Positions 1,558-30,330 of a stretch of DNA of 64,000 nt are shown here, piece after piece. Source of the stretch: Halichondria panicea (lineage: Eukaryota > Porifera > Demospongiae > Suberitida > Halichondriidae); assembly GCF_963675165.1 (NCBI RefSeq), contig NC_087383.1, positions 4,928,979 through 4,992,978 of the forward strand. Direction: 5' to 3'. How positions within the stretch are numbered: the first letter of the stretch is position 1; the number at the start of each line of letters is the position of its first letter. Under the pieces are notes generated by a model. That model saw nothing but the letters and a program-made list of their open reading frames with translations, ran no database searches and had not been told where the DNA came from. A program made the translations under genes and the position numbers.

Positions 1558-1713
1558 ATTTTATCTTGGATGATTCCCTCGACGAATTATCGATGATATT
1601 GATGACTGTATGTTGTCACATATTATGTGTCGAGGTGCTTCAATGCTTCCTATCCATGGTCAAGTTGCAACTCCTTCAATTGGCTGGAGATGTGGAAACA
1701 AATCCTGGTCCTG
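1558..1713 (+). other. 2A-encoding first exon of gene A
   Basis: The exon encodes a short Cys/Leu-rich leader ending LQLAGDVETNPGP, which fits the 2A consensus D(V/I)ExNPGP. In known 2As the ribosome skips the Gly-Pro bond. The exon ends one base after the terminal Pro codon (donor GTAAAT at 1714) and begins after a tacag acceptor-like tract, so both borders are phase 1. The 54-bp following intron is a multiple of three with no in-frame stop, so retention would be tolerated in copy A. Confidence 0.85.
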
Positions 1714-4700
1714 GTAAATTAAATATGGAACTTTTATTTATCCAGGCATTGAAATCAATTTGTACAGAGACCCCTGAGTACAGGACAATGGTATCGTGCA
1801 TCAAGGAGTTGACTGATACAACTGCTCGTGGTGTCTCTGGAATCAGTGATGTTTTATTCGCGAGATCGCTTATGTCAGATGAGATTCATCGAAAAATGAT
1901 GGACACTTATCTAGAAGACCATAAAAAAGCTTCGATACTGATTAAAGACGTCTCTGGTCAAATCAAGTTGAATCCTGAAAAATTCCTCGTCTTTGTTGAT
2001 GTCTTAAAGGAAGATGGTCCATGGACCAATGACATAGTCTCTCATGTCTTAAAAGAGTACAACAGTATAAAAGCATCAGGTGAGGTCAACCTATATAATA
2101 TTTTTTACAACTTTCACTCCTCTTTCTACCATGCAATGCAGCTCCACCTCCATCACATACAAGCACACTGAGTCATAGCGCTGACGTAAGCAGCCGTGTC
2201 AGTGATGTCGATAAAATCGCCCGACTCCATCGTGTAGATCTTATCGTACTTGATCAGCAATGCACAGATTCTCGTATTCTTCCAATATCCAAGTGCATAG
2301 TTCCTTGGAACGCTTATGGCCGATACCTTGGTTTAAGTCCACAGCAAATACGTGCTATTGACACAGATCGTCTGCTCTCTTTACCGCATTCCAAAGCTGA
2401 AGAAATGCTTCTTCAATGGAAGAAAATGTGTCATGCTCAGACAGCAATGAAATGTACCTATCGCTACTTGCTTCAGGGATGCATTAGTGTAGAAGGCAAT
2501 CTTCGCCTTGTAGGTGAAATATGCGATATCATTGCTGATCCCTCATGTAAGTGCAATCAAAAGTATGCGTAGCATCTGCATGACGGTCTTGTTTCATATT
2601 AAATATTTGTTGCCAACAGATGACAAAGCTGGCAGTGATCATGTTGTCCCCGGAATCTGCCCAAGCCCTTACAAACAAGCTGATAAACCACAACCTGTAA
2701 AGGCTGATGAACCAAGCCTAGAGAGAGCAAGAGAAACAGGTATTATAGGCTAAACTATAATTATAATCGTATGATATATGTACTTCCTTCTAGAACCAAA
2801 GCCATCCAAGGAGGACGAACTGCCTAACGATGTGCCAAAAGCATTCTGTGAACTACCTCCTACTACGGTAAAGACTCAGTATTCAGAGGAAAGTGATGCT
2901 CGTGCTCGTGCTCAAGTGGCTACAGGCAAACTGTGGCCAATCAATCACGGTAAAGATGTACTTCGTTTTTACATCATTAACCCAGATGATCTGGCCAGAG
3001 TTGGTCTCAATGCTGACAACATAAAGTCATGGGCTGAGAAGTGGGACCAGCACACATATAGCAATGAGATTCCAAAATTACGACCTTCTGGACATTCCAA
3101 TTCGGACATCAGGATCAAAATTAGTAAGCAATTGCTCCCAATGGACTGCTATTCATTTTGTTCTGCAGATCCAAATGGTGAATCTTGGTCTGCGGTTGGA
3201 GTTGATGCTGAATTGGTTGATAAATCCAAACCTACCATGGTTCTTGGGTTTGTCAAAGGTCGTAGTGACTACAATCAACACATCGCGATCCATGAATTTG
3301 GGCATGCATTGGGCATGGAGCATGAGCACCAGAGATCAATTTTCTGGTCAGTAGCGAAGAAGTTTATTGATGTTGACAAAATGAAAAAAGATGAGAGATT
3401 AAAGAACACAGATATTCATTACTTGGAAAGTTTGCAGTGTGGTGACGGCTCTGACAAGTACGACCCTGACAGTGTCATGCACTATTGGTGAGTGGAAATT
3501 CTTTTGTTGGTCTATACAATACTTTAACTCATTACTACTTTTATTTTCAGGTTCGACAAAGAATGGCTGAAGTCGGCTGAACATAGGGATAAAAATAAAG
3601 TGAATAGTGACAGAATTTTGAGTGACGAAGAGAGGAAAGTCATTCTAGGTATCCACACGCGTGATAACATCCTTGCAGTTTGCCCGTCTCCAACAGATTT
3701 TTCCTTTTTGGCAGGGTGCTACAGGAAAAGTAAGAGCTAGTGCCTGTACTAATACACTTAGTTTTAGCCAGCAATGGACAATGCCCCATCCAAGACAGCA
3801 CGTTACTATGGAGGGTACAATCTTATACACTCTGTGACTTGTATAATTATACATAATTATCATTGCTTGTTTTTTGTGTATCGATCCATAAGCAATTATG
3901 TGTGATGATTTCAATTTTGTAGAAATCGATCCGATTGGGCGTGATCAGAATGGAACATTACACCGAAGTGGAGGTATAGTTTGCTAGCCATATAGTTCCA
4001 AAATAATGGCAATGCATGACTATGATACTATTGTAGTTCTAAATAATAGTTAGACACTGTTTAGGAAGTTTCTACATGATTTAGAAGCCCAAAGGGCTGG
4101 TTGTAGTATCCCGAACGCAGTGAGGGTTCTACTAGCCCTGAGGACTTCTAAATCATGTGGAAACTTCCTAAACAGTGTCTAAGCATTTTAGATCATAGCA
4201 ACCATGAGTATTTAGCCAATCAGATTTGAATGTTCTTATCGCTACATGATTTTCTAAGTGAAGTACATGATTTTCTAAGTAAGTACATGATTTTCTAAAT
4301 AAGTACATGATTTTATAAGTTATAATATATAGAATACTTCCTTTAGCCAATCAAATTGCAGTATTTATGGCAAACATGATCTAAGTATCATATAAATACC
4401 TAGCCTCCTTCACCGGCCTTTGAAAGAAGGCCTGCTATCGACTGCTTGCGCATGCGCCAAATTATTGGATTTTTTCCCCGTAAATATTTCTATAATACTA
4501 TAATATTGGATTTTTTCCCCGTAAATATTCCTATAATACTGGTACATCAGAGAAAATATCCTAAAAGTCATACACAGAGCTATATAGCTAGCTAGCTAGA
4601 AACAGAGCTGTGTAGATTTGTTGTACTGCTATTTTCTTCTGATAGAATCAGTAGCAGTAGTATAGTAGACTTTCACCAAAGTTAGTGTTAAATGGGCGTG

Positions 4701-7700
4701 GCCTGTCCATATAGGCTCTTATCAGCCGTCACTCCTTTCAGACGATCGTCATCCACACTGTTGCAGGCTGTGAGTCTTTTGTTAACATAGCAGGCTAAGG
4801 GTAGCTATCAGAGAATGCTATTCGATGGGCTAGAAACCTTCAATCGAACTTTCTATCTACTTCCTTCAATCCACTTCCTTTCGTTGTGATGTCATAGTTT
4901 TACTGAGCATAAACGATGTTATCCAAAGCCCCCAGATACCGGGGGGATATTAGCGCATGCGCAAGCAGTCGATACCAGGCCCACTTCCCTAGCGGGAAGT
5001 GCGGCCTGGGATCGAGGCTAATAAATACCACGCATATACAGGTGTAGAAAATTCACATGCTGTACCCATAAATACTCCTGCGCACACCAAACCAATGGAA
5101 AAAGGTTCGTCTAAGGCGTGTACCCTATATTACACGCAATTGATTAACTGAAACCCTGACGATAATCGACTAAGTATACAACCAGTATAGGTTGCACACA
5201 TCTCTGCAGGAAAAGGCCACATCTGGTGGACAGGTAGTTTATTTCCTATAATCCCACAGGAACGATAATCAGCACTTATAACAGAAGAGCGCCTAATAAG
5301 GAAGCTTTTTGCGTACGTGCTACATAGATACTACTGCTAGAGCTGATCAGCAGTGGCGGATCTAGGGGGATCCCAGGGTGCCATGGAACCTCCCTTTCAG
5401 TCTTGCTAAGATCAGACTCTACCATATAGGCGCTAGGCATAGGCCTTCACGCTCTTGCAACACTGCACTTCATACATCTAGAGTACGTACGTGGCTGTTA
5501 TTTTATCACTGACTCACGAATTCAATGTAAGTGTGTACATATCAGCAATAATAATTATGCGTTAATTTATTCCAGCCCCGTCTTCTTTTCTTATAAACTC
5601 TACTGCTTCTTGACGTTCCACTTACGCATCAAAACCTATGTAATATACTCCGGCCTGTACTGAAAAAGAAAGGGAATCCGACCAGAAAACATTGGCAATG
5701 TATAGCTAGGATTGGCCGGAGGAAACCCAAAAGTGTGGAAATAAGAAAAACCGGTAAAGTTTATGCCACCATAGATAGAAGAGGAAGAGGAATTGGTAAC
5801 GGAAGTACCCTCGGGTAAAATCCGCTTTAGCGTGGTTTAATCGAGGCTGTGTCAACAAGCCAAAGATGAAGTTGGGCGTTGTCTGGCTAATGGCCTATTT
5901 TCTACACACTAGTGCATAATACGGGTATATACTGTACATGTACAAACTCAAACATTCAACATTCAGACAATACTTATAGCTTGCACAAAATGCACAGTCA
6001 ATGATCATTATGTCCCATGGCCACAAATTGTCCCCTAAAATACATGACTTGTATTAGCCTCCTTCACCGGCCTTCAAGAGAAAAGAAGGCCTGCTATCGC
6101 CGTACTGCTTGCGCATGCGCAAAATTATTAGATATTTTTCCCATACAATTTCCTATAATACTGAATTTATCTGAGAAAATATCCAAAAAATCATACACAG
6201 AGTTATATAGCTTGCTAGCTATAAAGACAAAGCTGTTAGAGTTGTTGGAATAGTAGACTTTCACCAAAGTTAGTGTTAGATGGGCGTGGCCTATCCATAA
6301 TTGTCAGCTTTCACTTTGTTCAGACGATTGTTATCCACACTGTTACAGGCTGTGAGTCTTTTGTTAACATAGCAGGACAAGGGTAGCTACCAGAGAATGC
6401 TATCCGATGGGCTAGAAACCTTTAAGCGAACTTTATATCTACTTCCTTCAATCCACTTCCAATCGTTGTGATGTCATTGTTTTACTGAGCATAATACGAT
6501 GTCCCCCAGATACCGGGGGGATATTAGCGCATGCGCAAGCAATCGATACCAGACCCACGCTTCGAGGAAGTGCGGCCTGGGATCGAGGCTAGACTTCAGT
6601 CTTGTACCATATAGCGGGTATTTCGAGGGTATAAATTTTCGCAGATGGACCTCTACAAAGGATTTTGCGGATTTTAATTTCGTGGTCTGGGTTCCAGCCT
6701 TTTGGCGCATGCGCACATCAACATGCAGCTGTACCTCCACACCGTTAGCCTCGAATTCTGGCCTAGCCTGTATGAATCGGTGAGGCACTATGTCCTCCAC
6801 CTCTAGCAGAAAGTTTGCTGTGCAGGCCATGGTCAGGGGATACCATCAGTACCAAACAATCTGGGCTATACCGGTGTCCTTGTCTTTTGATTGTTGTCGA
6901 TAGGTGTGGTTAATAATACTGAACATGCCTACTATTAATAAATTTTTGTGGGTATAAATTTTCGCGGTACAGGCTCAATCCGCGAAAACCGCAAACATTT
7001 ATACCCTCGAAATATACCCGCTATACGGTATATACTATTATAATTATATTCTTATGATGGTGTACTTTCTGCCAGAGAAGGTGCTTGCTATTCTTATAAG
7101 GGTGTACATTCTGCCAGGGAGGGCTTGCTATTCTTATGAGAGTGTACTTTCTAGATCTGCCATCAAGGGTGCTTGCTATTCTTATAAGGGTGTACTTACT
7201 GACAATAAGGGTGCTTAATTGCTATTCTTATAAGGGTGTACATTTTGCCAGGGAGGGCTTGCTAATCTTATGAGGGTGTACTTTCTGCCATAAAGGGTGC
7301 ATAGCAATTTTTCACATTGCCGGTAGGGTGGCGATGCATGTCTGGTGTGATATTACAGTGGAACCTCTTATAACAGACTCTCTAAATAGCGGACCCCTCT
7401 GTAATAGCAACAACATGTACCAATTGCTTTTATTATCAAACTAGTGTACTTGCAACCCCAAATAGCTATTACCGGCAATGTGAAAAATTGCTATGATTGG
7501 CCAGGAACACAAACTACCAGTAAACATGACATTTTACACTTGAATGACGTTGTAACAGTATTCAATGCTCTCGTCATATTTCTTGTTTCCACGCTTTTTG
7601 GTGTTGTTCCCGGCTAATCCTAGCACATATTGTACTTACTGCCAATGAGGGTATGCGGTGCTTGCTATTCTTATAAGGGTGTACATTCTGCCAGCGAGGG

Positions 7701-9712
7701 CTTGCTATTCTGATTAGCAAGTGTTTTTCTGGCCGGATACGAATGCGGTGGGTACAAGGTGTTTACGTGTGTGTGAAAACCGCTAAGCCAATACCTTGAT
7801 GTTGAATCATGCAGTCTAATGGCTGCACAGTTCCCAAAATGCAACAAGCGTACTGATATTCAATTTACGGTTGATTTTATGCACATCGATATCCTCTGTA
7901 CAATGCACAATAATTACTGCATGGGATGGAACGTTCAGTTATACTTATCAGTACTTGTTTATATAATTATACAGATCAACAAGAAAACATACAACCACAA
8001 TTAATAGTACCACCTCCTTCAACAAATCAAGCTACTGGCTTTCCCAGTCTTCAACGAGGTACTTAAAATAATTATACTTATATAAGTGTGTTGATATTAT
8101 GTGTGCATTTAATCTGCTAGCTATTATATACCGTATAGTACGAAATTTTCGCTGATTTCGTGGTTAGCAATCCTACACGAAAATTAAGTCCACGAAAATT
8201 GTTAGAATTATCTGCTACAACGTACAGAGATTAAAGGCGTGGCTTCCGGTAAGCAGTCATTCGTGCAACAAAATGTTAGAGGCCATTCATAAGTTAGTGC
8301 CTCGAAAATTTTGTGCTATACGGTAGTCGTATGTTTGTATAGACAACAATTGTGATCATCAATAACTCATGTGCTTTTGCATCATTATAATTATAGATAT
8401 GATAAGCAAAGGCCGTGCTAGGAGTCCCTCACTCGATCTCAACATGTCAAGCTGCCACGCTAAAATTGGCAAATCTACCGTTGCCACCGAGATTGGCAGC
8501 GTTATCAATAGAGTTTCTGATTTGGCAACTAAAATCGGAAAAACTGATGCAAGAGATCAACTGCAAGAAGTATCTCTTAATCTCGGTTCTTCTGTTACAA
8601 AAGTTGGGGTTATAGGAGCAAGTAACTCCGGGAAGAGCACAACACTAAATGCACTTATTGGGGATAAATTTCTACCTGCATCATCAGGGGGTACAACAGC
8701 ACACATTCTTTGTATCAAGCATAATCCTGAATTTCTAAACGGTAAACTTTTGGATCCTGAAGAGAGGGAACTTGCAAAGGAGAGGAGAAGCATTTTTGAG
8801 GAACTTAAACGAGTTAATAAAACACAGCGTAAAAGTTCCCAGGAACTTAAACGAGTTAATAAAATACAGCGTAAAAGTTCCCAATTAAGCACCGCCAGCG
8901 ATTCTGGTGCTATATTTGAATTGCAGGTTTTAATCCCTTTCTTGAGTAAACATCCTGACATCAATCTTGAGCTTTATGATACACCAGGCACTTCCGAAGG
9001 TAAACAATCCCAAATTTACCTCGATACTATACAAACTATTGAGCAAATGGAAGGTCTTCTTCTAATACTAAGCCAGGATACAGTACTGCTTGACCCAACA
9101 ACTCAACTGGTCCAGAACCTACGAGAAAAATATCCACTGCTGATGGATCCAAAACAGCCAAGAATTCTAGTTCTCGTGAACAAATATGACCTATTCTTCG
9201 ATGACATTGATGAAGATGAGGACAATGAGACCATAGAAGAGAAACGTCTAGATATTAGTGGAAGAACTGGGTTTCCTCTACAAAATATCGTTTTCTATAG
9301 TGCTAAACTTGCCCTCACAGCAAGAAAGTGGAGAGCTGACATTGCATCAGTTGATGAAACACAATTTGATGAAACAAAAGTTGCTGTTCGAAAATTGAAG
9401 AAAGAAGAAGTAACTGAGCTACTGAAAAAAACAGATTTAACATTTGAGCAGAAAATCAAGAAAATGAGTGATATTGCCACGAGTGGAAGTCTTATCGAAG
9501 AAGTGGAGAAATCAATCGTAAAGTCCTGTTCAATGTTTAAGCCATTAAAAGCTATAGATGACACGTTGAACATTATATGCAAGCTACTTGAGGATGTGCA
9601 GCAAGAAAGAGAAAGAAAAAGGTCCGATTCTGAAAAGCAAGAGGCGGCAGGGTGGTCAGAGGATTTGGAACAACTAAAATTAAAACTCAAGTCATTTTCA
9701 AATGACTTTTAA
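1558..9712 (+). CDS. Gene A: 2A signal - CARD-like - Death domain - astacin protease - dynamin-like GTPase
   Basis: Exons: 1602(or 1593)-1713, 1768-2079, 2142-2546, 2620-2739, 2794-3487, 3551-3729, 3923-3973, 7975-8058 and 8397-9712. The frame closes over 1,090-1,093 residues. Optional in-phase microexons at 5048-5104 and 5210-5233 would add 27. Domains in order: hydrophobic leader ending DVETNPGP; CARD-like helices; a Death domain with the WNAYGRYLGLS core; an astacin-type protease with HEFGHALGMEHEHQR and SVMHY; a GTPase with P-loop GASNSGKST, DTPG and NKYD. Nearly all introns are phase 1. The conserved ATG is 1602 and ATG 1593 is also in frame; an in-frame stop at 1542 precedes both. The family is unknown to me as a whole. 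The domain calls come from motifs, and an immune or cell-death role is inferred from the death folds plus GTPase. The GTPase exon has a 39-42 bp internal tandem duplication at about 8799-8882. Confidence 0.8.
4047..4182. repeat. Hairpin element in gene A intron
   Basis: Inverted arms of about 45 bp read 'agacactgtttaggaagttt' on the left and its complement on the right, around a loop. It lies between exons at 3973 and 7975. No coding content is seen. Confidence 0.75.
4242..4322. repeat. Short tandem repeat, 'tacatgattttctaag' units
   Basis: Four imperfect head-to-tail copies of a unit of about 22-25 bp containing 'tacatgattttctaag'. Intronic, with no coding signal. Confidence 0.7.
4400..5021. 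mobile_element. MITE-like element, family with GGCCTGGGATCGAGGCTA end
   Basis: Begins 'tagcctccttcaccggcc' and ends 'gcggcctgggatcgaggcta', which are imperfect terminal inverted repeats. It contains 'gcgcatgcgc' near both ends. A second copy is at 6056-6591, a right-half copy at about 240-652 and a reversed relative at 35425-35760. No transposase is seen, so it is non-autonomous. Confidence 0.7.
6056..6591. mobile_element. Second copy of the GGCCTGGGATCGAGGCTA MITE family
   Basis: Colinear with 4400-5021: the same 'cctccttcaccggcctt' start, the same 'cagacgattgttatccacac' core and the same 'gcggcctgggatcgaggcta' end. It is about 85 bp shorter. It lies in the long gene A intron. Confidence 0.7.
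6606..7030. mobile_element. MITE with 'accatatagcgggtatttcg' termini
   Basis: The left end 'accatatagcgggtatttcg' is answered by 'cgaaatatacccgctatacg' near 7030. The inner 'agggtataaattttcgc' is also inverted. The interior shows no gene; open frames on both strands across it are chance frames. Confidence 0.65.
7060..7720. repeat. Minisatellite (40-45 bp units) split by an inverted-repeat insert
   Basis: Five to six units with the core 'cttgctattcttataagg' plus 'gtgtacattctgccag' run from 7060 to 7310 and resume at 7625-7720. Between them, 7305-7328 and 7467-7493 are inverted copies ('atagcaatttttcacattgc'), consistent with an element that landed in the array. A pogo-like end 'cagtggaacctcttataac' lies at about 7359. 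Confidence 0.65.
8129..8325. mobile_element. Small MITE with 'taccgtatagtacgaaattt' ends
   Basis: About 195 bp. The left end 'accgtatagtacgaaa' is matched by the right end 'ttttgtgctatacggta'. It sits in the last intron of gene A, just before the GTPase exon. Confidence 0.65.
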
Positions 9713-10221
9713 AAGTGACAGTTAGTTATTATTTTGTAGCTATAGTGTATAAATTATTTTTGTAGAAAGATTTCTAGCTGGATCAGTCAGAGGATTTGGA
9801 AAAACTAACGAGTGCTCTTCAAATACGTAACAATGTACATAATTATAATTATAGTGTGCATAAATAATTTTTGTATAGATTTCTAGCTGGATCAACTAAA
9901 ATTTGAGTGCTATTTTTGTATAAGATTTCTAGCTACCGGTAGTAAGACAGTCATACGTTGCATAGTGCATACTGTATTACTAGAGTTTTTGAACATAAAT
10001 AAAATTGCAAAACCTAAAAGTTAGTACTGGTAGTAATGACACCTGATCCCTGCCAAAACACAATAGTTAGATCGCGAAGACTCAAATTTTCTGCTGATTT
10101 GGCTCATTTGCAAAGGTGTTTTATCCGCAATGTCAAGTATTATCCCTCGTGCGGCTACGCCTCAAGGCATAATAACTTTTTACTATAAGGACCTTATTAT
10201 GACATATCACTATGGGGAATG
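9713..10221. repeat. Gene A 3' flank with echoes of the last exon
   Basis: Two degenerate partial repeats of the exon end appear: 'gatttctagctggatcagtc' followed by 'agaggatttggaaaaacta' at about 9766-9808, and a shorter one at about 9883. At about 9970-10200 there is a dispersed AT-rich repeat beginning 'actgtattactagag', related to 33870-34080 and 56789-56957. No gene is seen. Confidence 0.5.
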
Positions 10222-10353
10222 AATCTTTGTATCAAGCCATAATCCTGAATTTCCAAACGGTAAACTTTTGGATCCAGAAGAGAGGGAACTTGCAAAGGAG
10301 AAGAGAAGCATTTTTGAGGAACTTAAACGAGTTAATAAAACACAGCGTAAAAT
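10222..10353 (+). pseudogene. Detached fragment of the gene A GTPase exon
   Basis: About 130 bp match 8715-8850 of gene A closely (shared 'aacggtaaacttttggatcc' and 'aacgagttaataaaacacag'). The P-loop and every other GTPase motif are missing, and the match stops after 'cagcgtaaaa'. It is a broken partial duplication and not functional as a GTPase. Confidence 0.85.
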
Positions 10354-11099
10354 TGTCAGTATCAACAACCCAAGTCACTATCTACATGTATACCACGGGG
10401 CAAGAACAGTCAAAGTGTCTAAGTCACCTTCATAGAAAATACAGCACCCCGACGCTGATGCTATGAGACTGAGAGTGGACAAATCGACAGCAATTGGTAG
10501 TTAGTAGTGGCCTAAGTAGCCACTTGAAATGTACAATAGCGACAATTAAGTCACTGTATAAAGCTGCCAATGGTTGAATATTGGGTGTTCTGCCTATCAC
10601 CTTATCCAATGACCTAGACAAGATATGTATATTACTCATGCAAGTGGGATGTACAGGTAATACAACTCGAGCCCGAGGGCAAGAGTTGTATTCGCAGTAC
10701 AGCACGAGGGCATGACGTAATAACCTAACTTATTGCTGATTAATGGATCTGCAGGATTCTACCCGACTGCATTTAGATTCGCCACGCACCAATGCACTCC
10801 AGTTTATGCAAGCTAATAGAGTGCTGGGTGGTGCTTTACACATCCAAACACCCACGGGGTGTGTCATGTCCGTTCACATCCTGACACGGGTTCGTTCACA
10901 AGCCTGAAACGAACCCGTGGCTGTGTAGGTTAAATCGGTTATGCATCCTGCATGGGTAATATCAATATCATCCAAGACAAGAGTAGCTTATCTACTCTTG
11001 TCCAGGTATATTGACCACATGATATCACCCAGGCATGTGCTGTATATGTACATTGTATTTACAGCACAGTAGTACAATCCTTGCCACAATGAGCAATAA
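10354..11099. other. Gene-free stretch with small inverted repeats
   Basis: No gene recognised. Short inverted pieces include 'caagagtagcttatctactcttg' near 10978 and a 'gaacccgtg' pair near 10885-10920. They look like decayed MITEs. Confidence 0.5.
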
Positions 11100-12331
11100 C
11101 ACTGCACTATGGCGTGTAATTTGAGTCAGTATTGTGCCGGTAATATTGCCAAGGCAAAAAAGTTTTACCGGTACATTTGCCGCGGCAATATTTTTACCGG
11201 GACAATTGCCGCGGCAAAACTGTTTGGCTCGGTAAATACCGGGACGATTGCCCCGGCAAAAAGCAAAATTTTGTGGATGGGTAAATACCGCGGCAAAAAG
11301 TTTACTGAGCCATTTGCCGCGGCAAAAACATTTACCGGGCCGTTTGCCGCGGCAAAAATATTTACCAGGCCAAATCTAATCATCACGTGATGTGCACCTG
11401 ATCTGCCTCGTGGTATATTAAAGTTTTATGGATGTAGCTAGCTGTACGTACGTGTAGTGATCTTGTATTTACCATCTTTAGAGAGTGTTGGCAAGCTATT
11501 AATAAGTCAAGAAAGAGAGCCCCTCTGTGTAAGATAAGTTTAAGTAATTAGATAGCTCTTCTTTCAACTTGTGCATGCTATTATTTGTATATCTTTGTTT
11601 TTTAGCACTCCCACAAGAGCTGGTGATGCTATGAAGACCAGGCTGGAAATTGAAGACTTTCTGTCTGCTAAAGAGTTGTACTTCCCCATTGTTTTCCTGC
11701 CCCCCCCCATTAATCCTGATTTGGTGCACAGTTTTTGTTGTTCACTTTTATAAAACAAAGAAACAATTATGAGTATAAATCAATACACTTGTTAAACACA
11801 GCTTCCTTCGTGTCACAAAGATGAATGTTCTATTTCAGAGATACCAAGTAAACGGAGACCATGGTGGTTTGAGCTGTGCCAGTAAATGGTGGTTTGAGCT
11901 TTACAAGACTACCTTATCTAATTTAATACTCTCTGAAAGGCAGCAAATAACGAGATCACAACATCCATAACACTTGATAACAATAAAATGATGTAGATCA
12001 CTGAAATTTTAATATACCACGAGGCAGATCAGGTGCACATCATGTGATGATTAGATTTGGCCTGGTAAATATTTTTGCCGCGGCAAACGGACCGGTAAAT
12101 GTTTTTGCCGCGGCAAATGGCTCAGTAAACTTCTTGGAGCGGTATTTACCCATCCACAAAATTTTGCTTTTTGTCGGGGCAATTGTCCCGGTATTTACCG
12201 ATCCAAACAGTTTTGCCGCGGCAATTATCCCAGTAAAAATATTGCCGCGGCAAATGTCCCGGTACAACTTTTTTGCCTCGGCAATATTACCGGCACAATA
12301 CTGACTCAAATTACATGCCATACTGCACTGT
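11100..12331. mobile_element. Foldback element with 330-bp inverted arms made of GCCGCGGC repeats
   Basis: The arms at about 11100-11425 and 12003-12331 are near-identical inverted copies. Each contains six to eight subrepeats of the palindrome 'tttgccgcggcaaa' spaced by 'tttaccgg', and ends with 'cctcgtggtatattaaa'. The arms are open in one frame on each strand (about 93 codons, Ala-Ala-Ala-Lys repeats), but this follows from the repeat and I do not call a gene. The 580-bp centre has no transposase. Confidence 0.8.
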
Positions 12332-13065: not shown

Positions 13066-13330
13066 ATTATGCCTCGAGGCGTAGCCGCACGAGGGATACT
13101 GTAAAGCTGACTGTGTGCGCGTGTCCGTGTGTCTGTTCCAGCTGTAACTGCTCAACGGTTGCAATGCGACGAAAGCTAACAGCTTCTATAGGCTTCTAGC
13201 CACGTTCTCTTGGATTTTGATTCGTGGATTAGCAAACTAAAGCTTCTTTCTCAAGTTATGGCTAGTTTGACTCACATTGAAGGCTGTTGCAGTCTCTTCA
13301 GAATCTTTCATAGCATCATCTGTTCGCACA
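13066..13330. repeat. Dispersed repeat, 'gcctcgaggcgtagccgcac' family
   Basis: Starts 'atgcctcgaggcgtagccgc' and runs through 'gcttctataggcttctagcc' and 'aaggctgttgcagtctcttc'. Related copies are seen near 42050-42280 (reversed), 47330-47560, 50286-50400, 58230-58450 and 59525-59770, and a short piece at about 10140. Several lie inside introns. The class is unknown and there is no coding content. Confidence 0.65.
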
Positions 13331-13486
13331 AACTTTCTATTCAACATATGAGTTAGCCTTGCACTAAAAGGCTAGCTTTTTATTAGCTACAATACTCAGA
13401 AAATATCTGTTAAAACAGCTAGCTAGCAGTAGCCATTTGTGAAATTGATCTCTTTGGACACACCCTTTCTAGACTCTAAATCTCAG

Positions 13487-14670
13487 GTAGACTTTGTATA
13501 TCTGGATTTTAAAAAAGCTTTTGACAAGGTTTCCCATAGTGGCTTACTTGTGAAACTAGATTCACTGGGTGTAAATGGGAATGTTTGGTTCTGACTTAGG
13601 GAATATCTCAATAACAGACGGCAACTGGTCTCTGTGAATGGCCACCATTCCTCTATCCTGCCTGTTACCTCTGGAGTGCCACAGCGCAGTATACTAGGCC
13701 CCTTGCCATTTCTCGTCTTCATAAATGACTTACCAGACTCTGTCAAGTTCTCCAAAGTGCACCTTTTTGCTGATGATACCAAATGCTCCAAGGTTATCGA
13801 TAGTGTGGAGGATGTCAACAAGCTTCAGTCAGACATCAATGACATCACTAGTTGGAGCAAAAGCTGGTCGCTCCCTTTCAACGAAATGAAAAGCATAGTA
13901 ATTCAATTCTGCTCCTCCCCTCCACCCCAAACCTCATACACTCTAGCCAGACTAAACGTAACTCACTCAATGTCCAACAAAGATCTAGGTCTCATTTTCC
14001 AATCGGATCTCAAATGGGTGTCCCACTATAACCAAATCTCTGCTAAAGCTTACAAGAAACTAGGACTGCTCAAAAGAACATTTTCATCATCAAACTCAGT
14101 TGATACTAAAAAGAAACTTTATATCTCTCTATTGAAGTCTCAACTGTTGTATGGCTCAGTACTATGGAGGCCGATGCTCATCAAAGATATCCTATCTCTA
14201 GAAAAAATTCAGAGGAGAGCGACGAAGTTCATTCTTGGCCAAGGTCTATCACCGCTAACCTACAAGGAAAGACTCGTCAAGCTAAATCTCTTCCTTCTTA
14301 TGTATCATCTAGAACTGGCAGATATTATGTTCTACATAAACTCTTACAAAAACAGAACTCCAAGATACAACATTTTGGATTATATCACACCATAGATAGA
14401 GTAGATCACACCAACTGCACGGCTACACCAGATCCTCAGACTATCATAGACTAAGCCACAAGTACTCACGTACGAAGCACGTCCAGACATTTCTACTACA
14501 ATCGTCTCCCAAGATTATGGAATAACCTGCCACCACTAGACATTAACCTCACTAGCAGCTCTATCAAAGCAAAATTGAAGAATCTCCTCTGGCAACACTT
14601 CCTTATCAATTTTGATTCTGACGCTCCCTGCACCTTCCACTTTAAGTGCCCATGCAGCAAATGTTGTTAG
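13487..14670 (+). pseudogene. LINE-type reverse transcriptase remnant
   Basis: The reading frame shows reverse-transcriptase blocks in order: YLDFKKAFDKVSH, SGVPQRSILGP (usually GVPQGSILGP), then FADDT with the catalytic Asp pair. A tail encoding RLPRLWNNLPP and ending in a Cys-rich CPCSKC follows in another frame. A TGA at 13592 interrupts the frame, the Q-G of the QGS motif is Q-R, and the 3' part (after about 14395) is frame-shifted. There is no endonuclease or 5' part. It is a dead, 5'-truncated non-LTR element, CR1/Jockey-like by motif style. Confidence 0.88.
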
Positions 14671-15934: not shown

Positions 15935-15966
<32 letters not shown>

Positions 15967-17330: not shown

Positions 17331-17339
17331 GTTAATGTT

Positions 17340-20781: not shown

Positions 20782-20857
20782 TAACAGCATGCCACAAAAA
20801 TCATTTGAACCATACCTTATTAGGAATTGTGTTTCATGAGCCAGAGAGACCTGAACT

Positions 20858-20922
20858 AGTCTCGAATACCCGCCTCTACAATAATATACCGGTAGATCGA
20901 GGCGGATATTCGAGACTAGACC
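20858..20922. repeat. Short hairpin
   Basis: 'ctagtctcgaatacccgcct' is answered by 'aggcggatattcgagactag' across a 20-25 bp loop. It belongs to a family of TAGnCTCGA-ended small inverted repeats. No gene is seen in the neighbouring 20782-21418. Confidence 0.75.
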
Positions 20923-21418
20923 TGAACTACATGCATGTCCATAACTTTCGTCAGAAGATTGTGGGAATGGGCTAAGAGATTTGGGATTTCTGGCTGAACG
21001 AAGTGATCAAGTCAAGCCGAAATGAAACCCTGATATGATGGAGGTGCTATGTGGTCAAGACTGATCAAGGTTCAGGGATGCAGAACTCGTGAACCGGCCA
21101 ACCAATTTATCACACATGACTGGAAGAAAAAGGAAGTGAATGGTTTCCTGTCTAATTAGGTATATAGTCTACCACAGAGACATTAATGTGGCAGTTTCCT
21201 TGTTTTTGCTGTGCAAGTTTGCAGTTGTTGTCCAAGTCCACCAAGTCTTAGCAAATTCTGACACTGAACTAGATCTGGTGAGATCAGAGCTATATAAAAT
21301 ATTTGCTATAAAGTGGACTATTTTGCAACATAGCCAGATCAATTTATTATTTATAGAACTTTAATACTGCTCATTTTACATTTAATAACAGATCTACTGC
21401 TGAGTGATTCAACACAGC

Positions 21419-21700
21419 ATGCCGATCAGTGCTGATCAGTGGAGAGTGGTGATTGGCTGCAACAATGTCAGGAGGCATCGTCAAATTGATTTGAAACGAT
21501 TCTGCTTGGAAAAGATGATTTTTGGGGGAAGCAGCATACAGTTAGATCTATCCGATCTATCTCAGCTGGACGCAGTGGTGCAAGAAGTACGGAAGGATGC
21601 TGAAACAAGCCATTCTGCGACACTTAATGGTAAATTATATACTGGTATCAGAGGAATGATTGTTATATTCCTGCCTAAGGTAACAGGAGTAAGAACTTGA
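21419..21700 (+). CDS. Small open frame of unknown function, possibly one exon
   Basis: About 93 codons from ATG 21419. The product begins MPISADQWRVVIGC, has a central LDLSDLSQLDAVVQEVRK stretch predicted helical by eye, and ends soon after a potential donor (cctaag|gtaaca at about 21678). I recognise no domain, signal peptide or membrane segment. It could be one exon of a larger gene or a piece of a mobile-element ORF. No neighbouring exon could be tied to it. Confidence 0.3.
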   Translation: MPISADQWRVVIGCNNVRRHRQIDLKRFCLEKMIFGGSSIQLDLSDLSQLDAVVQEVRKDAETSHSATLNGKLYTGIRGMIVIFLPKVTGVRT

Positions 21701-23180
21701 TGAATCCCCCTAGCTAGATCTATAATTATTGCGGGTTTAGCCATTTGAGTTGCCACAAACATTGTGGCAAACGTTGCACGAGTCTCTACACGGAGTTTGA
21801 CCAGTCTTTTTTTCACATGCAAAAAGTGCTGGCTTGCAAGTCTAGCGTTACATGCATGCTTCGACGATTGACTGTTTTCATTATGAAGTACGATAAATGT
21901 TATAGTAGCAAGCTAGGTTAACAGTTAATAGTTCATTTTGTAGTGCTGTAGTAGACAGCAATGAGTGAAGAGCAAAGTTGCGGTATTTCAATTTGCTGCT
22001 AGGAGTAAGTGGAAAAGGCAGATTCAATAGGAAGCGGAAACTAACACGGACAATGAACATAATATAAGTCATTATCATAATTGAGGCGAGCCCTGAGGCT
22101 CGTCCCATAGTAGCGAGTACTGCAGAGCTCAGCGACCGGATATCCGTCTGTGTTTGTGTGTCTGTCTCATGGTCAGTTCAAGCTTTTTAGCGTGACGATC
22201 GCTGCATTTTCTAATAATCATTTGTATTGCATGAGCAAGACATTAAAATTCTACACTGGATGAACTGATACAGCTCAACAACTAAGGCAATTGTGTTCCC
22301 TACGCCATATCTAAGACACCATCTGCTGGCAAGGCTAAGGGAAGTTTGACAACAAGTGAGACAGAAGCTTGTCTGTCATCAAAGGTTCGAATTGAAAAGG
22401 AAGAGAGAATTGCAGTTAGAGATACCTTTAGGAAACAGCAAGTCAAACAAGTAATTACTACTCACTACAATTTCTTTTTGCCAAGGCTCGCCCCACACAA
22501 TGCTTCCAGCATTCCCCTAGTACTAATTATCATGATGATAACCATGTCTACATTTATGCCTAGCCTTGGTGTGTTCGTGTGTCTGTTTTGTAGACTAGCT
22601 GCTCACTGATCAATGAAGACGCTTCTAGTTATGTTTTCTCAATTTGTGGATAGTGCCCTGTTGGGAATTGTGGCTAAGCCTAGCTATCACTTCAATTTTG
22701 GTACGGTAAAAAATTAATTTCTGTCAGGGAACGAAATATTTGTTTCTCTGGACTAGGTCCCACCTGAAAAAAGTGGTCCTAGACAATGCTAGAGATCTAT
22801 ACATGTAGTTTCATGCGCATGCAACAGCTCTTACTCTTGCATGGCCATTCACCTGTTACAGTCAAATGAGGCATCACTTTTACAAGAACCAAGGAATCTC
22901 ACATATTTCTTATAAAATTGTATGTGCTCCATTGTACATTCACTGACTTCGGATCTATAGTTGTTCTGATCAGGGTCGTAGATAGCTTAGATTTACGGGG
23001 GTAGCAAGATAACAGAAGGTGTGCGTCAATGTGCCAAACATTTTAGGACATGCCCCCTTTTTTTAATGCCAAGAGGAATTGTATTATCATAATACTTACG
23101 AAGTGTATACTTGATCTACTGTGCCTAGCAGTAGCGTCACATACCAATTTAGTGCCAATGATAACGTACCACCTCAAATG
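21701..23180. other. Gene-free stretch
   Basis: Contains part of a dispersed repeat near 22085-22200 ('gaggctcgtcccatag'). A short open frame at 22346-22609 has a Glu/Arg-rich start but no family resemblance. No RNA gene seen. Confidence 0.4.
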
Positions 23181-23189
23181 GTGAACGTT

Positions 23190-23366
23190 CAGCCTCAAAA
23201 AGGGGCCATCAGACCAGCAATAAATGTATTCACGATCACATTGATATTCAGGAAAGGGGCGACCAGACCAGCAATAAATGCATTCACGATCATGCACGTT
23301 GATATTCAGGAAAGGGGCGATCAGACCAGCAATAAATGTATTCATGATCACGTTGATATTCAGGCA
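23190..23366. repeat. Minisatellite, three units of about 57 bp
   Basis: Three head-to-tail copies contain 'cagaccagcaataaatg' followed by 'ttgatattcagg'. The array stays open in one + frame, which follows from the unit length, so I do not call a protein. Confidence 0.8.
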
Positions 23367-23686
23367 GTGGCACAAACAACAGGTGTGCTTGTAACCGAAG
23401 CTACATGCATTCTACAAGTAACTCCTCCGCAGTTACCGTACTCAAATTAGATTACGCCCACACTAATTGCATGCTGCAAAGCAGCTACCAGTGTAATGTA
23501 ACATTATGTACAAAGCAAACTATAATGTTAAGAGTGCAATAATTATGGGATTAATAGCACGAGTAACAAGCAATCCTCGTGCTATTAAGCTTTTGTCAGT
23601 TTGTTATGAGTGCTATTAATCTCTTATTGCACGAGTAACCGTACTATTGATTTCTAATCGTGTATGATGAAGTTCTCTAGCCTCTA

Positions 23687-24441
23687 CACAGGCTCTCCTT
23701 TTTCTGTTCTTTATCACAATCGTTCAATAAGATAAAATACTGTCTTAATCGTTCAATGAGATAAAATACGGTATTAATTGGAGGAATAAAGAAAGAAATA
23801 GACGTAGAGTTAGGAAAAAGGAGAGCCTGTATCGGGAAGTCGCGTGAGGGTAGAAGGGTGGTAGAAGGGTGAAAATGAGCGTGGGCATGCTGAGCTAGAG
23901 ATGTTGGACTGCCCACGCAGATATCTATGACTAATAAAACTTTACCTGCAGCAAGCTGGACATGGACTTGGAACTGGAAGTTTGCAAGCACTATAGCTAG
24001 CTATACCTTAGGCTTAGCTAGATGATCTACTAGTCTAGATTGTGTGTTCAGATTCTATCAGACTATTACCTTTTCTTGTGTCTTTCTACATGCTAGTATA
24101 GATCAAGAATAGCTTAAGTTAGTCATCATTATCATATATAGCAGGTAGCTACTGCCACCAGAGCTGGCCACGCTGGTTCTCTGATCTGACTTGCAGCACA
24201 GCTTGGTGGTTGTCTCAGTACAGTCTTATTAACTCTGAATGCGTGGGAGAATACCTTACGTCACGATTGTGGGCTACATATCGCCCACGTTCATAAAAAT
24301 CCTTGTGGATCACGCGATTTCCCAAACCAGGCCTTACTTTTTCTTAACTGTACGCCCATTTCTTTCTTTGTTGCCTCACTAGCACTATGTCTTTTATGGA
24401 TGAACAGTGACAACAGCAAGAAAAAGTAAGGCCTGGGATCG
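23687..24441. mobile_element. Composite element with a hairpin at each end (copy 1)
   Basis: The left hairpin (23687-23832) pairs 'aggctctcctttttc' with 'gaaaaaggagagcct'. The right hairpin (24329-24441) pairs 'aggccttactttttc' with 'gaaaaagtaaggcct', then 'gggatcgaggcta'. The body includes 'gagcgtgggcatgc' and 'tacgtcacgattgtggg'. The same parts occur in reverse order and orientation at 31388-31942, so this is one mobile unit. No protein is encoded. Confidence 0.7.
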
Positions 24442-24449
24442 AGGCTAGA

Positions 24450-24960
24450 AGTTCTCTGCAGTTGTATTAACATTTTCGGGTAGTTAAAACCTGCTGCAGT
24501 ATATAACCATTTAAAAGTAGAGTTGAGGCCTTCAATGAGTGCGAAGTTTTCTTAGAAACAGACATAAACTTACACTTGCCAAGATTGAATTCTGGTGCTC
24601 AAAAAATTTGAGACGTCATTTTGGAGATCTACGTAGCCATTAGAAGATGTGATAACTCTGTACAAGGCCATGTCATCAGCAAACATATTTATTAAGCTTA
24701 CTGGCTTGAGAAATAACATCTGTGACTTACGTAATGAACAATAGTGGACCCAAAACCGAGCCTTGGGGCACACCTGAAAGAACATGAGTTACTGCCATCA
24801 ATTCCCACAAACTGTTTCCTCTCCAGTAAGTAACTATGCACCCAGTTTAAAATTAAGTGACTGAAGATGTTTCAGAAGAGTAACATGGGGGACAGAATCA
24901 AATGCCTTTTTGATATAAACTACACATACTTCTTGACCTTGATCCAGGGGCCAGACCAGG
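24450..24960 (-). pseudogene. LINE reverse transcriptase remnant on the minus strand
   Basis: Read on the minus strand, the pieces are YIKKAFDSVPH, SGVPQGSVLGPLLF and FADDMALYRVI, in the order of a non-LTR reverse transcriptase. They lie in different frames with stops between (for example after the QGS block). The element is truncated at both ends. Its 5' side abuts the start of the duplicated block of gene B at about 24970. Confidence 0.85.
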
Positions 24961-24967
24961 GCTCTAC

Positions 24968-25340
24968 TCCAGTATTAGGCTGCATACGTTTTGGTCAAGT
25001 TCTAAGGCTCCAAAACATTTATGCGACATTAAGAATCTAATAAGAGAGAGAGTATCGAACGAAGCCTTGCCTTGCATCAGAAAGCGTGATCCAATTAATG
25101 ACAATTTCCATGGCAATAACATATTACTATATGGCAAGCGGCTTGTATAATTATACTCGTGGTAATAACGATTAAATCCCCCCTCTCCCAATTCTATTGT
25201 GCAATCATTATTTTAGTTGATTCGTGTGCATGAATTGTGTGCCTCGTGGCTTATCAGATAAGCATGCACGGTATTGAAATTTATGCACACGCATGTGTAT
25301 TATACCAAACATTGTCCATTATACTGAATTTTTTGTACAG
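24968..25340 (+). promoter_or_regulatory. Upstream block shared by genes A and B
   Basis: The sequence from 'tattaggctgcatacgtttt' to the tacag before the first coding exon is repeated upstream of gene A (about 1068-1557). The last 180 bp, including 'gtgcctcgtgg', 'gcatgcacggtattg' and 'ttgtccattatactgaatt', are best conserved. It marks the 5' limit of the duplication and probably holds the promoter or a first intron. No TATA box is evident. Confidence 0.55.
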
Positions 25341-25490
25341 ATTTTATCTTGGATGATTCCCTCGACGAATTATCGGTGATATTGATGACTGTATGTTGTC
25401 AATGTATCGAGGTGCTTCAATGCTTCCTATCCATGGTTAAGTTACAACTTCTTCAATTGGCTGGAGACGTAGAAACAAATCCTGGTCCAG
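25341..25490 (+). other. 2A-encoding first exon of gene B
   Basis: Conserved with gene A. A 35-residue leader from ATG 25385 ends QLLQLAGDVETNPGP. The donor is one base past the Pro codon (25491). The 52-bp intron contains an in-frame TAA, so it must be removed for the downstream domains to be made. The 2A motif is complete, with none of its consensus residues changed. Confidence 0.85.
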
Positions 25491-28400
25491 GTAAATTAAA
25501 TATTGAACTTTTTTAACCAGACATTGAAATCAATTTCTACAGGTACCGAGACACCCGAGTACAAGACAATAGTGTTATGCACCAAGGTGTTGACTGATTC
25601 AATTGCTCATGGCGTCTCTGGAATCAGTGGTAGTTTATTCTCGTTATCGATTATCTCAAACGAGACTTATCAGGAAATGATGAACACTTCTCGAACTGGT
25701 CATAACAAAGCTTCGATACTGATTGATGACCTCTCTAATGGAATTAAGTTGAATCCTGAAACATTCCACAAATTTGTCGCTGCCTTAAAGGAAGATGGTC
25801 CATGGACCGAGAACATAGTCTCTCATGTCTTAGAAGCGTACAGCAATATTAAAGCATCAGGTACCGTAGGTCAACCTACAATATTTTGTGTATTTCTACA
25901 CATTTCCCGTCAACTTTCACTCTTTCTACACCATCCAATGCAGCTCCACCTCAATCACAAAGGACCCCACCGAATTGTAGCGCTGATGAGAGCAGGCGTA
26001 TCGTCAACGATATCGCCCGACGCCATGGTGTAGATTCTCTCCTTGATCAGAAATGCACAGATTATCATATTCTTCCAATATCCAAGTGCATAGTTCATTG
26101 GAACGCTTATGGCCAATACCTCGGTCTAAGTCCACAGCATATACATGCTATTGATACAAATCGTCTGAACACTTTACCGAATTCCAAAACTAAAGAAATG
26201 CTACATAAATGGCAGGAAATGTGTCCAGCAATAAAATGCACTTATCGCTACTTGGTTCAGGGGATCATTGAGGTAGAAAACAATCGTCGCCTTGTAGGGG
26301 ACATATGCACTATCATTGCTGAACCCTCACCCTCATGTACAAGTAAGTGCAATCAAAAGTATGCGTTACATGTATCTGCATGGCAGTTTGCTCCACATTA
26401 TATAATTTTTTGTCAATCAGATGACAAAGCTGGCAGTGATGATGTCATCCCCAAAATCTCCCCAAACCCTCACAAACGAGCAGATAAACCACAATCTGTA
26501 AAGGCTGATGAACCAAGCCCTAAGAGAGCAAGAGAAATTGGTATTATAAAATGAACCGTAATAATTATTATAAAGTTTATTGTAGTTAAATGTAGTTAAT
26601 GGGGAAGTACCCTAACTGCGGCGTTACCTCGGGTACACGCTATGATAACAAAGGCTTGGCCCTCTGGCCTCACTGCGCGTGCGCAGTATCTGTCACACAC
26701 GTGTGAGTAGCCAGAGTTTTGCAAAAGACTCGTCTAACTCTTTGCCTCCCACCCTCCCATTCACATCGGTTAGAGCCCTAACCACCTTTTCTATCCGACG
26801 ATGTTGATTTATCGGTTTGGGGGGCTGAATGAGGGCCCCCAACACTTAAGTGCTTAAGGCTAATCGCGGGGCCCCTCTCTCAGTACTCCCCCAAAAACCT
26901 AACTGCAGTCACGTGACCTCCAACTTCTAGCGCAACAGAGACGTGGGGGCACGTGACCTACGCTTAGACCCGGTACTGCCAAAATATCCTCACGCCGGAT
27001 ATGACACCTTCGGTATACACCACAATCTGTACAACCATAGTTAAATCGTATGATATAATTGATATGTACTTTCTTCTAGAGCCATTCAAGGAAGACGATG
27101 TGCCACAAGCATTCTGTGAACTACCTCCTCCTAGTACGGTAGAGACTCAGTCTTCAGAGGAAGGTGTTGATGAAGAATGCAGCATTGATGGTGCTCTTGC
27201 TCAAGTGGCTACAGGCAAACTGTGGCCTATCAATCACGGTAAAGATGCACTTTATTTTTACATCATTAACCGAGGTGATCTGGCCAGAGTTGATCTCAAT
27301 CCTGACAACATAACATCATGGGCTAATGAATGGTGCCACCACCATGTATATAGCAAAGTGATTCCAAAATTATATATCACTGGAGATTCTACTAAGTCAG
27401 ACATCAGGATCAGAATTGGTAAGAGAAATAATATTGCTCTCAATGGCTGCTATTCACTTTGTTCTGCAGATCCAGATGGTAAATCTTGGTCCAAGATTGG
27501 AGTTGATGCAGTATCGGTTGATAAATCCAAACCCACCATGGTTCTTGGGCTTCGCAAAGGTTATAGTAACTACAATCAACACATTGTAATCCACGAATTT
27601 GGGCATGCACTGGGCTTGGAGCATGAGCATCAGAGATCAATTTTTTGGTCAGTGGCGAAAAAGTTTATTGATGTTGGCGAAATGAGAAGAGATGAGAGAT
27701 TAAAGAACACAGATATTAATGGTGACTACTTGGAAAGTTTGCAGTATGGTGACGGCTCTGACAAGTACGACCCTGACAGTGTCATGCACTATTGGTGAGT
27801 TGAAAAATCTTTTTTGGGATCATGCATGCAATCTTACTATAAAATTATAGGTTCGACAAGAAATGGCTGAATCCGAAGAAATACAGGGATGAAGATAAAG
27901 TGAAGAATGACAGACGTTTGAGTGATACGGACAGGAAAGTCATTCTAGGCATCCACAAGCGTCATTTGAAATTTGCAGTTTGCCCGTCTCCAACAGATTT
28001 TGCCTTTTTGGCACAGTGCTATGGGAAAAGTAAGAGTATGCTGTGTTAGTACGTTTTAACTACTTATTATAACAAGACCGTTAGACGTGGAACCTTTTGC
28101 ATTTCGAACAATTTTGTAGTCCATGGAATGTTGTACTGGTACACTAGTACAAGCTGTAAAGATCATCCCACTTCAGTAATCCTGTACATTTGTTTCATAC
28201 ATGCCTCCAAACAGTGCTGGTGCCTTGCACATGTGGCTTTTTCATCTCATTGCCTAGTAGCCTCAATCCCAGCCCCTCTCACTAGGCCTGGAATTGAGGC
28301 TAATTGCCTAGCAATGGATATAGATGCAATTATTTATCACCAACTGATCAGAATATAGGCGCGATCAGGACATAGTATATATAATTATTTGCTATACATT

Positions 28401-30330
28401 AAGACAGGAGTCAAAGAAACATAGGGAAGTAGCAACATCTGGAAGTTTGTGACGAGTGCCTGGCTCATTGCTTTGATTCGAGAATGACTATAATTATACT
28501 ACTCACTTTGTCACTGGGTAGTGTTAGCATCATTTTCTACTAGTATATAGAGTGCTACAATCGTTTGCAGCCTTTTGGCTAGCTATAGGATAGCTACTTT
28601 TCCCCGTATATATATATATTCTCTTTGTCTCTGCACGCAGTCCTTCGTAAACATTATGATATGAAACCAACCTCCTCTGATATACGCACTTTATAATAAC
28701 TGTACTGGATTTACCACAATCTTTTGATGTGGGCATGACCACAACGATAGTGTAAGTACAGTATTAATAATTTATATTTCCACTCATGTCTTAAGTAGCA
28801 GGTATACATAAGTTTTAAACTACTACGATTCTAACAGGAGATGTAATACAAAGTAGATAATTGACTGCTGACTCAGCGGGTTGTTGAAGGTGCATGCATT
28901 CTTATGATGTTTTGGCATTGTAACCCAGTGCAATACAGGTCATCGAGAAAACCAGCCACATATAATTATACATGTAAATATAATTTTATTTTAATACAGA
29001 TCATCGAGAAAACCAACCACAATTAATAGTGTCATCATCAGATGATTTCGAAAATCTCCAACGAGGTACATAAGTGGGTGTGATGTATGGCTTGCCAATT
29101 AACAGATTGTAACGTTTTGGTTGTTCCCCCATTACAGACAATGCAGGTAGTCCTGTAATCACCATCGATCAGCTTATTGAAGAAGTGATTTGCTTAGCAC
29201 GTGTCATAAGTAAAACCGATATAGTCGAACAACTAGAGAAAACACTAATTCTCCTCAAATCCAATTGTACAAAAGTGGGAATTATTGGTGTAACCGGGTC
29301 TGGAAAAAGTACTACAATAAATGCAATGCTTGGTGAAGAATACTTACCTACTCGTAGTTCAGGTGAAACAGCATATGTACTTTGCATTAAACATGATTCA
29401 AATCCCACTGCTACATTGTATGACAAAACGGTGGATAAGAAAGAAATTGCTACTGAGCCGAAAAACATTTCAAAGGCACTGAGAGAGTTCAATTCGGAGC
29501 GGCGCAATAAAAAATCCCCCGAATTTGAAATTGATCGACAACTGGAACTACATGTTCCTGTTAAATTTTTTCAGAATTGCAGCACAGAATTGGAGATATA
29601 CGACACTCCAGGTACTTCCGAGAAAATAAAATCACGAATCTACGAGGATGCTCAGAAAGCAAGAGAAGAAATGGAGGGAATGATTCTTGTATTGTCTGTT
29701 GAGACCCTTCAGTTTGATGCAACAGCAGAACTTTTGAAATGTATCAATGACAAGTTTGTGAAACAAAAAGAGAAGCGACGAGAGAAGAGGAGAATCCTTG
29801 TGCTAATGAACAAGAAGGATTTATTGTACTCAGATGGACTTAATGACACCGAAGAAACACTGAAGAATGGTGCTGAAGAAAATGTTCCTGTTCCATGGGA
29901 GGAAGTTGTAGTCTACGGTGCACAACTTGGTCTCCAAGCAAGAAAATTAAAAGTAAATCCGCATGTGCAAAAGAGGGAATTTGACAAATTTTGTTTTGCA
30001 GCAGAAGACATTCCTGAGATAAAGGACAATGTACATGTACTTCAGATGAACACATTCAGCCCACAAAATGTGCAGGAGTTAGCCCGACTTGCTGAGGAGG
30101 GAAGTGATATCAAAAAGGTAGAAGAGAGTCTCAAGAAATCATGCCCTCGGTTCAAAGTTCTAAAAGCCATTGATGACACAAGAGATCGCGTTGCAGAGCT
30201 ACTGGAATATGTCAAGCAGCAAATCACCCGAGATATGGAAACCGACAAGACATTAGGAGATCGTATGAAAGAGTGGTCAGATAATGTGAAGAGGCTTGAG
30301 GTTGTTGGAAAAAAATTGGAAGACCTATGA
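25385..30330 (+). CDS. Gene B: 2A signal - CARD-like - Death domain - astacin protease - dynamin-like GTPase
   Basis: Exons 25385-25490, 25543-25860, 25944-26342, 26421-26540, 27080-27794, 27851-28029, 29000-29065 and 29138-30330 total 3,096 nt, exactly 1,032 codons (1,031 aa plus stop). Residues 1-35 form the leader ending DVETNPGP. About 40-135 is CARD-like. About 165-270 is a Death domain (WNAYGQYLGLS core). A charged linker with SPKRARE follows. About 360-610 is an astacin-type protease with HEFGHALGLEHEHQR from about 486 and SVMHYW. About 635-1031 is a dynamin-like GTPase: P-loop GVTGSGKST at about 685, DTPGTSE, NKKD and a helical tail. All zinc ligands, the catalytic Glu and the Met-turn are present. 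There is no transmembrane segment after the leader. Function is unknown; an immune or death-signalling effector is inferred. Confidence 0.85.
26580..27060. repeat. GC-richer insertion in gene B intron 4
   Basis: The intron between 26540 and 27080 is about 540 bp, against 54 bp in gene A. The extra 400-plus bp are unlike the AT-rich surroundings ('gagggcccccaacactt', 'cacgtgacctccaacttc'). It is presumably an inserted element, but I could not identify terminal repeats with certainty. Confidence 0.5.

Follow-up and report, generated by a model that had tools for sequence, protein, structure and literature searches.

Death-fold platforms of animals are chiefly known to act via caspases, kinases, or NADases, and initiator caspases such as caspase-9 and caspase-1 carry a CARD prodomain. 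In sponges, the Death-like/TRADD-N proteins of Amphimedon combine N-terminal death folds with exchangeable enzymatic or adaptor C-termini and form a lineage-specific expansion; section 10 of the paper describing them (Kaur et al. 2021, PMC8195603) lists ankyrins, SH3-LRR, kinase, caspase, PNPase, HD, and other C-terminal domains and, in that section, names no metalloprotease or dynamin. A further relevant group are the sea urchin NLRs, i.e., death-fold immune genes that, in the part of the source drawn on here, start with a D(V/I)ExNPGP motif of the 2A type and lead from there into NACHT-LRR (PMC4981915).

Here, we describe two genes, A and B, in a window of 64,000 nucleotides from the sponge Halichondria panicea (C7:4928979-4992978 in the searched genome of 131 Mb and 39 contigs). 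Each of them holds, in one splice-compatible frame, a 2A leader motif, a CARD, a Death domain, a metzincin protease with intact zinc site, and a dynamin-family G domain. They thus share N-terminal death folds followed by enzymatic parts with the Amphimedon proteins and the N-terminal 2A motif with the sea urchin NLRs, but this motif leads into a protease and a GTPase. With a probability of roughly 0.48, we favor the view that A and B are members of a sponge family of death-fold-linked astacin-type metalloproteases that would be intracellular, single five-part proteins working by the mechanism proposed below.

Five modules in one splice-compatible frame

Both genes consist of eight exons on the forward strand. 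Those of gene B are predicted to join into one frame of 1,032 codons including the stop, as a sequence-only reading of the window had claimed, and gene A, with a corrected exon 7, gives a predicted open frame of 1,073 residues plus stop (1,074 codons). All introns are GT-AG, with six of the seven in phase 1 and the other in phase 2. The motifs that the same reading had named for all five parts are indeed intact in A and B, i.e., DVETNPGP, WNAYGxYLGLS, HEFGHALGxEHEHQR, SVMHY, GxxxSGKST, DTPG, and NKxD. Joining of exon 1 to a closer acceptor site (1750 in A, 25521 in B) was rejected, as it puts B out of frame and the site in A is not AG.

Exon 1 encodes the leader with its D(V/I)ExNPGP motif (1602..1713 in A, with an ATG at 1602 and another in-frame ATG at 1593; 25385..25490 in B). 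Across the genome we found 116 such 2A motifs versus 0 for the reversed pattern, far beyond chance. In a comparison of 100 of the 116 motifs with 102 NACHT matches, at least seven of the latter have a same-strand 2A motif no more than 2.5 kb ahead of them, and at locus L091 a 2A leader is followed by an exon that resembles a Death domain by eye. Since 2A motifs precede NACHT genes and this Death-like exon, the leaders mark immune-type genes in H. panicea too, as they do in the sea urchin NLRs. In the region C14:0.50-1.44 Mb (L088, L090, L091), 2A leaders of strongly hydrophobic character form an array with dozens of members, mainly DVEANPGP, some followed by NACHT and one by the Death-like exon.

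Exon 2 (1768..2079 in A, 25543..25860 in B) is predicted in B to fold into a CARD-type helical bundle with a predicted local distance difference test score (pLDDT) of 95.4 and the CARDs of Apaf-1 and caspase-9 as best fold matches; exon 2 of A is 61% identical to it. Exon 3 (2142..2546 in A, 25944..26342 in B) encodes a Death domain supported by both a sequence profile and a predicted death fold (pLDDT 86.1 in B). In this way, profile evidence for the Death domain and the predicted folds of both modules agree with what had been read from the motifs. Alignments comprised 24 CARD and 19 Death members, each including the two from the window, after removal of loci duplicating the window genes, of incomplete domain matches, and of translations that were identical. 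Pfam CARD matched 4/24 CARD members at E<=0.1, and the exon of B is not among these four. A linker exon follows the death folds (2620..2739 in A, 26421..26540 in B).

The protease module spans exon 5 (2794..3487 in A, where it reaches up to SVMHYW; 27080..27794 in B), which holds a pro-segment with a recurrent cysteine and the astacin-type catalytic domain, and exon 6 (3551..3729 in A, 27851..28029 in B), which holds its end. HEXXHXXGXXH with the family glutamate is present as HEFGHALGLEHE in B and HEFGHALGMEHE in A and in 24 of 29 fetched modules, while the Met-turn SVMHY of A and B is found as SIMHY or SVMHY in 27 of the 29. Pfam Astacin scores 28.8 and 28.6 bits for the two genes, above the gathering score of 22.5 (the scan of A was made on an older model with 3923-3973 as exon 7). 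The intact zinc site makes the proposed role of the protease as effector plausible. In an alignment of 10 modules (with the residue at the exon 5/6 junction corrected in A, to W instead of R, and in B, and a wrong residue remaining in the other rows), the XXRXDRD signature after the family glutamate is not found in full: A and B read HQRSIFW, 7/8 relatives HQRSDFW, and the eighth HQTVFFW, so that the arginine is kept in 9/10 and DRD in 0/10. Neither are the two conserved disulphides apparent among these modules, as there is no invariant cysteine and only one column with cysteine in 5/10. Because DRD and the disulphides are missing, we refer to the protease as astacin-like and do not count it as a typical member of M12A. 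The lack of disulphides would fit a reducing cytosol.

The aspartate switch of animal astacins is absent as well, with no FxGD[ILV] in A or B and no [FY]xGD[ILVM] in the open frames that precede 27 family modules; as a control, FEGD[IL] was found in this genome at 7/8 loci of ordinary astacins, and the eighth (L005) matched only at an unrelated place. Instead, A and B carry AFCELPP with its cysteine 29 and 36 residues before the first tryptophan, and a cysteine 25-36 residues before this tryptophan recurs in 23/29 modules, a range that was chosen after inspection of the data and counted in an upstream open frame that may include intron codons where the acceptor is not fixed. This pattern points to a cysteine switch in which the thiol would bind the zinc, and the best sequence match of the B protease in the PDB is myroilysin (2.4e-7). 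Five modules (L012, L013, L023, L031, L037) have HQFGH and are likely inactive copies; four of them also lack the linker cysteine. An AxA box was discarded as a family-wide activation site, being present in just 11/27 other modules.

Exon 7 is a mini-exon (29000..29065 in B) for which the corrected model of A uses 7975..8058, with homology between the two genes (QENIQPQLIVPPP...LQR in A, HRENQPQLIVSSS...LQR in B) and equal phases. The segment 3923-3973 was dropped as exon 7 of A because it has no partner in B, while 7975-8058 matches B exon 7 clearly. A near-copy of the start of B exon 7 (89% over 35 bases) lies at 28932-28966, ca. 60 bases 5' of that exon. Exon 8 (8397..9712 in A, 29138..30330 in B, each ending in the stop codon) encodes the GTPase with the marks of the dynamin superfamily, i.e., G1, G3 DxxG, G4 NKxD, and the Dynamin_N profile. 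Dynamin_N is found in 6/7 and MMR_HSR1 in 7/7 aligned GTPases, and the best profile matches are mitofusin-2 (1.2e-5), an EngA-type GTPase (4.7e-5), mitofusin-1 (5.8e-5), and a bacterial dynamin-like protein (2.3e-4). Past residue 40 there is no strongly hydrophobic stretch of 19 residues (maximum 1.4 in B, 1.1 in A). Neither NACHT nor LRR nor TRADD-N has a Pfam match at E<=1 in A or B, and no known sensor domain was recognized; the suggestion of an NLR-like protein with a GTPase in place of NACHT thus survives only as an analogy. A fragment of the A GTPase lies 3' of gene A at 10235-10390 (forward strand), and 129 bases at 10224-10352, which match a portion of exon 8 with 97% identity, mark it as a recent partial copy.

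Relatives in the genome

Genome searches gave 63 exon matches for the protease module, 29 for the Death exon, 7 for the GTPase (of 9 candidates), and 93 for the CARD (150 of 193 candidates scored), of which 30/63, 20/29, 7/7, and 20/93, respectively, were available for reading. Among the matches listed, only A and B have this type of astacin beside a GTPase, with neighbor relations judged by distance and strand. Four of the five GTPases outside the window, all on contig C14 (L041-L044), have a CARD directly upstream, and at L042 the two share an open frame that ends in a long C-terminal tail; no CARD was seen at L045 on C13. This pairing of CARD and dynamin-family GTPase looks like a second new combination. 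A CARD also lies 1.3 kb upstream of an astacin on C1, and at C8:4823405-4834509 (L049, L086, L023, L037) another precedes three same-strand astacins in tandem, with 2.4 kb to the first of them, and the whole may be a multi-protease gene. Death-like matches stand beside same-strand astacins at six loci (L016, L025, L026, L030, L033, L035), two of them strong (3.5e-14, 4.3e-11) and four weak (6e-5 to 2e-3); at least those at L025, L026, and L035 lie between tandem astacins. An assignment of such matches in the C3 cluster as C-terminal to an astacin was given up for this position.

Database proteins include P0007, 99% like the B GTPase, and the astacin P0023, 85% like A; because each is listed on a contig of 89,109 bases, we considered a swapping of heads between haplotypes. 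Around L073 (C5:1703442-1703809) we found stray copies of the linker exon (68%) and of the part with which the protease module begins (81%). Other features of the window are a reverse-transcriptase-like open frame between A and B (13598-14392, forward strand; RVT_1 E 2.1e-6, 28 bits, slightly below the cut-off of 29.6) and an HSP70 open frame (53549-55060, reverse strand; PF00012 E 3.3e-156, starting at frame residue 75).

A probable single protein and its alternatives

While domain identity is computed, we infer latency, clustering, the role of the GTPase, cleavage, and a function in defense. In the proposed mechanism, 2A recoding would partly separate the leader, so that the protein would be cytosolic, perhaps with an exocytic fraction. 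CARD and Death domain would join a signaling platform on which the protease is latent at first, its zinc capped by the cysteine ca. 30 residues upstream of the catalytic domain. This cysteine may then be displaced when the proteins cluster or when GTP drives a change in the tail, and cleavage ahead of the catalytic domain would release the active protease. Such a protein would work along the lines of a caspase that carries a death-fold prodomain, except that a metzincin does the cutting and a GTPase serves as switch or membrane anchor, and its role may lie in defense or cell death. Only tentatively do we go further and propose a metzincin counterpart of caspases in sponges, i.e., intracellular astacin-type zymogens docked through CARD and Death domain, with a cysteine switch of a kind not known for animal astacins, a GTPase within the chain in two genes, and a 2A motif that splits the product between cytosol and secretion.

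To judge from their exon layout, protease and GTPase probably lie on one transcript. The conserved mini-exon has no ATG in B and requires an upstream phase-1 donor, no ATG precedes the P-loop in the GTPase exon of B, and the phase-1 borders are common to A. Moreover, the database protein P0008 (81% identical to the B GTPase) has residues TDN at the same place, which suggests that it uses the same GTPase-exon acceptor as B. Between protease and GTPase of B there is neither AATAAA nor ATTAAA, which is weak evidence for one transcript given that 1.5 are expected by base composition. Alternatively, two gene types could alternate in the window, a 2A-CARD-Death-astacin gene of ca. 610 amino acids that stops after exon 6 and, apart from it, a gene for the dynamin-family GTPase with a first exon that went unrecognized. 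We see this arrangement as doubtful but a serious contender, and it would make the bare GTPase gene exceptional because of the CARD just ahead of the GTPase at most other loci. The points in its favor, together with some on the modules themselves, weigh against the view favored here. Block homology between A and B (1369-3736 versus 25152-28036, ca. 80% with introns included) ends 7 bases past the exon 6 donor, and synonymous divergence is 0.15-0.31 in the head modules but saturated in the GTPases (38% identity). The heads therefore seem recently duplicated or converted and the GTPases old paralogues, so that the description as two paralogues holds from 2A to protease and fails for the GTPases, which stem from a separate, older duplication. 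Since the GTPases do not come from the same duplication as the rest, head and tail may have recombined or merely be adjacent. Unspliced, exon 6 runs into an in-frame stop 3 codons past the donor in A (3738-3740) and 6 codons past it in B (28047-28049), which makes a stand-alone protease a valid predicted model; stops after the last astacin exon at other loci leave the junction undecided. Intron 6 of A would span 4.2 kb, contains repeats, and has three poly(A) hexamers (5020, 6937, 8230), while 7 ATGs in the protease-GTPase interval of B are able to reach some phase-1 GT, so that a separate first exon of the GTPase is possible there. A tblastx comparison of the two intervals gave no extra shared exon and is uninformative because the known mini-exon escaped it too. 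A search for full-length relatives of B yielded none at E<=0.01 in 7,992 scored candidates. On the side of the modules, the profile search proposed earlier recovered Astacin and Dynamin_N but no Pfam CARD in whole A or B at E<=1, the Death exon of B alone scores 17.5 bits (cut-off 22.6), and neither of the two death-fold models has a Foldseek match at E<=0.001. In the C3 cluster, the Death-like matches sit between tandem astacins and could be part of either neighbor. Finally, the association that points to a cysteine switch, with HQFGH replacing HEFGH in 4/6 modules without the cysteine versus 1/23 with it (Fisher p 0.003), amounts to about two independent losses because L012/L013 and L023/L037 are close copies. 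The sequence-only reading is right about the order and open frame of the five modules, with the predicted join from protease to GTPase as the weak one. The wider family of protease modules, some of them next to death folds, the recurrent cysteine, and the missing aspartate switch go beyond that reading.

It is unlikely that A and B are ordinary secreted or surface astacins whose 2A leader acts mainly as a signal sequence and whose death folds form a passive pro-region. CARD and Death folds normally belong to the cytosol, the catalytic domain shows neither invariant cysteines nor the aspartate-switch motif upstream, and the maximum Kyte-Doolittle value over 12 residues of the leader is mildly hydrophobic at 2.1 in A and 1.9 in B versus 3.1 in a C14 leader. 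For such astacins speak accounts, in the portions of the sources used, that N-terminal 2A sequences can serve as signal sequences (PMC4981915) and that astacins are extracellular (PMC9848320). Still far less probable is that tandem duplication left behind decayed exons which line up by chance and form no working gene: despite the GTPase fragment 3' of A and the repeats throughout its intron 6, 16 exons without internal stop and with intact motifs argue otherwise, as do close relatives of both halves on other contigs. The ratio of nonsynonymous to synonymous divergence (dN/dS) between A and B, at 0.08 in the 2A leader and 0.49 in the catalytic half, likewise speaks against decay, with the leader apparently under strong and the catalytic half under moderate constraint. 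For the whole astacin module it is 0.86, and the 1.31 of CARD and Death domain suggests a value above 1, with dN exceeding dS in just 447/500 bootstraps.

Comparison with described systems

Like initiator caspases, the five-part proteins favored here would place a death-fold part before a latent protease, but with a metzincin in place of a cysteine protease and a Death domain, a 2A leader, and a GTPase in addition. A pro-segment cysteine is shared with myroilysin, a bacterial astacin with a cysteine switch (PDB 5gwd, 5zjk, 5czw; PMC9848320, in the part drawn on), which lacks death folds; the cysteine of A and B may likewise bind zinc. Fusion-type dynamins such as mitofusin and the bacterial dynamin-like protein resemble the GTPase by profile matches, yet A and B have only ca. 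170 residues after NKxD (the C-terminal tail is longer in the relatives L042 and L045) and no strongly hydrophobic stretch. Judged by titles and the openings of abstracts, none of the papers listed in searches of open literature describes an animal protein that combines death folds with an astacin or with a dynamin-like GTPase, and the words "astacin" and "dynamin" do not occur in the main text, as far as available, of a study on NLRs of Dysidea avara (PMC12909245) or of a lipopolysaccharide study of H. panicea (PMC8242945). The accessible text of the latter provides context with individual-specific receptors and GTPase regulation.

If our view is true, a zinc metalloprotease behind CARD and Death domain would add a class of protease to the outputs of death-fold platforms, an animal cysteine switch would exist within the astacin family, and immune-type genes would be rebuilt by swaps of head and tail at a phase-1 intron. 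Death folds with exchangeable effectors are already known from Amphimedon, and there is a real chance that the genes described here go beyond this theme if the cysteine switch and a caspase-like use hold. Death-domain-linked proteases may then fill, inside sponge cells, a role that caspases have elsewhere.

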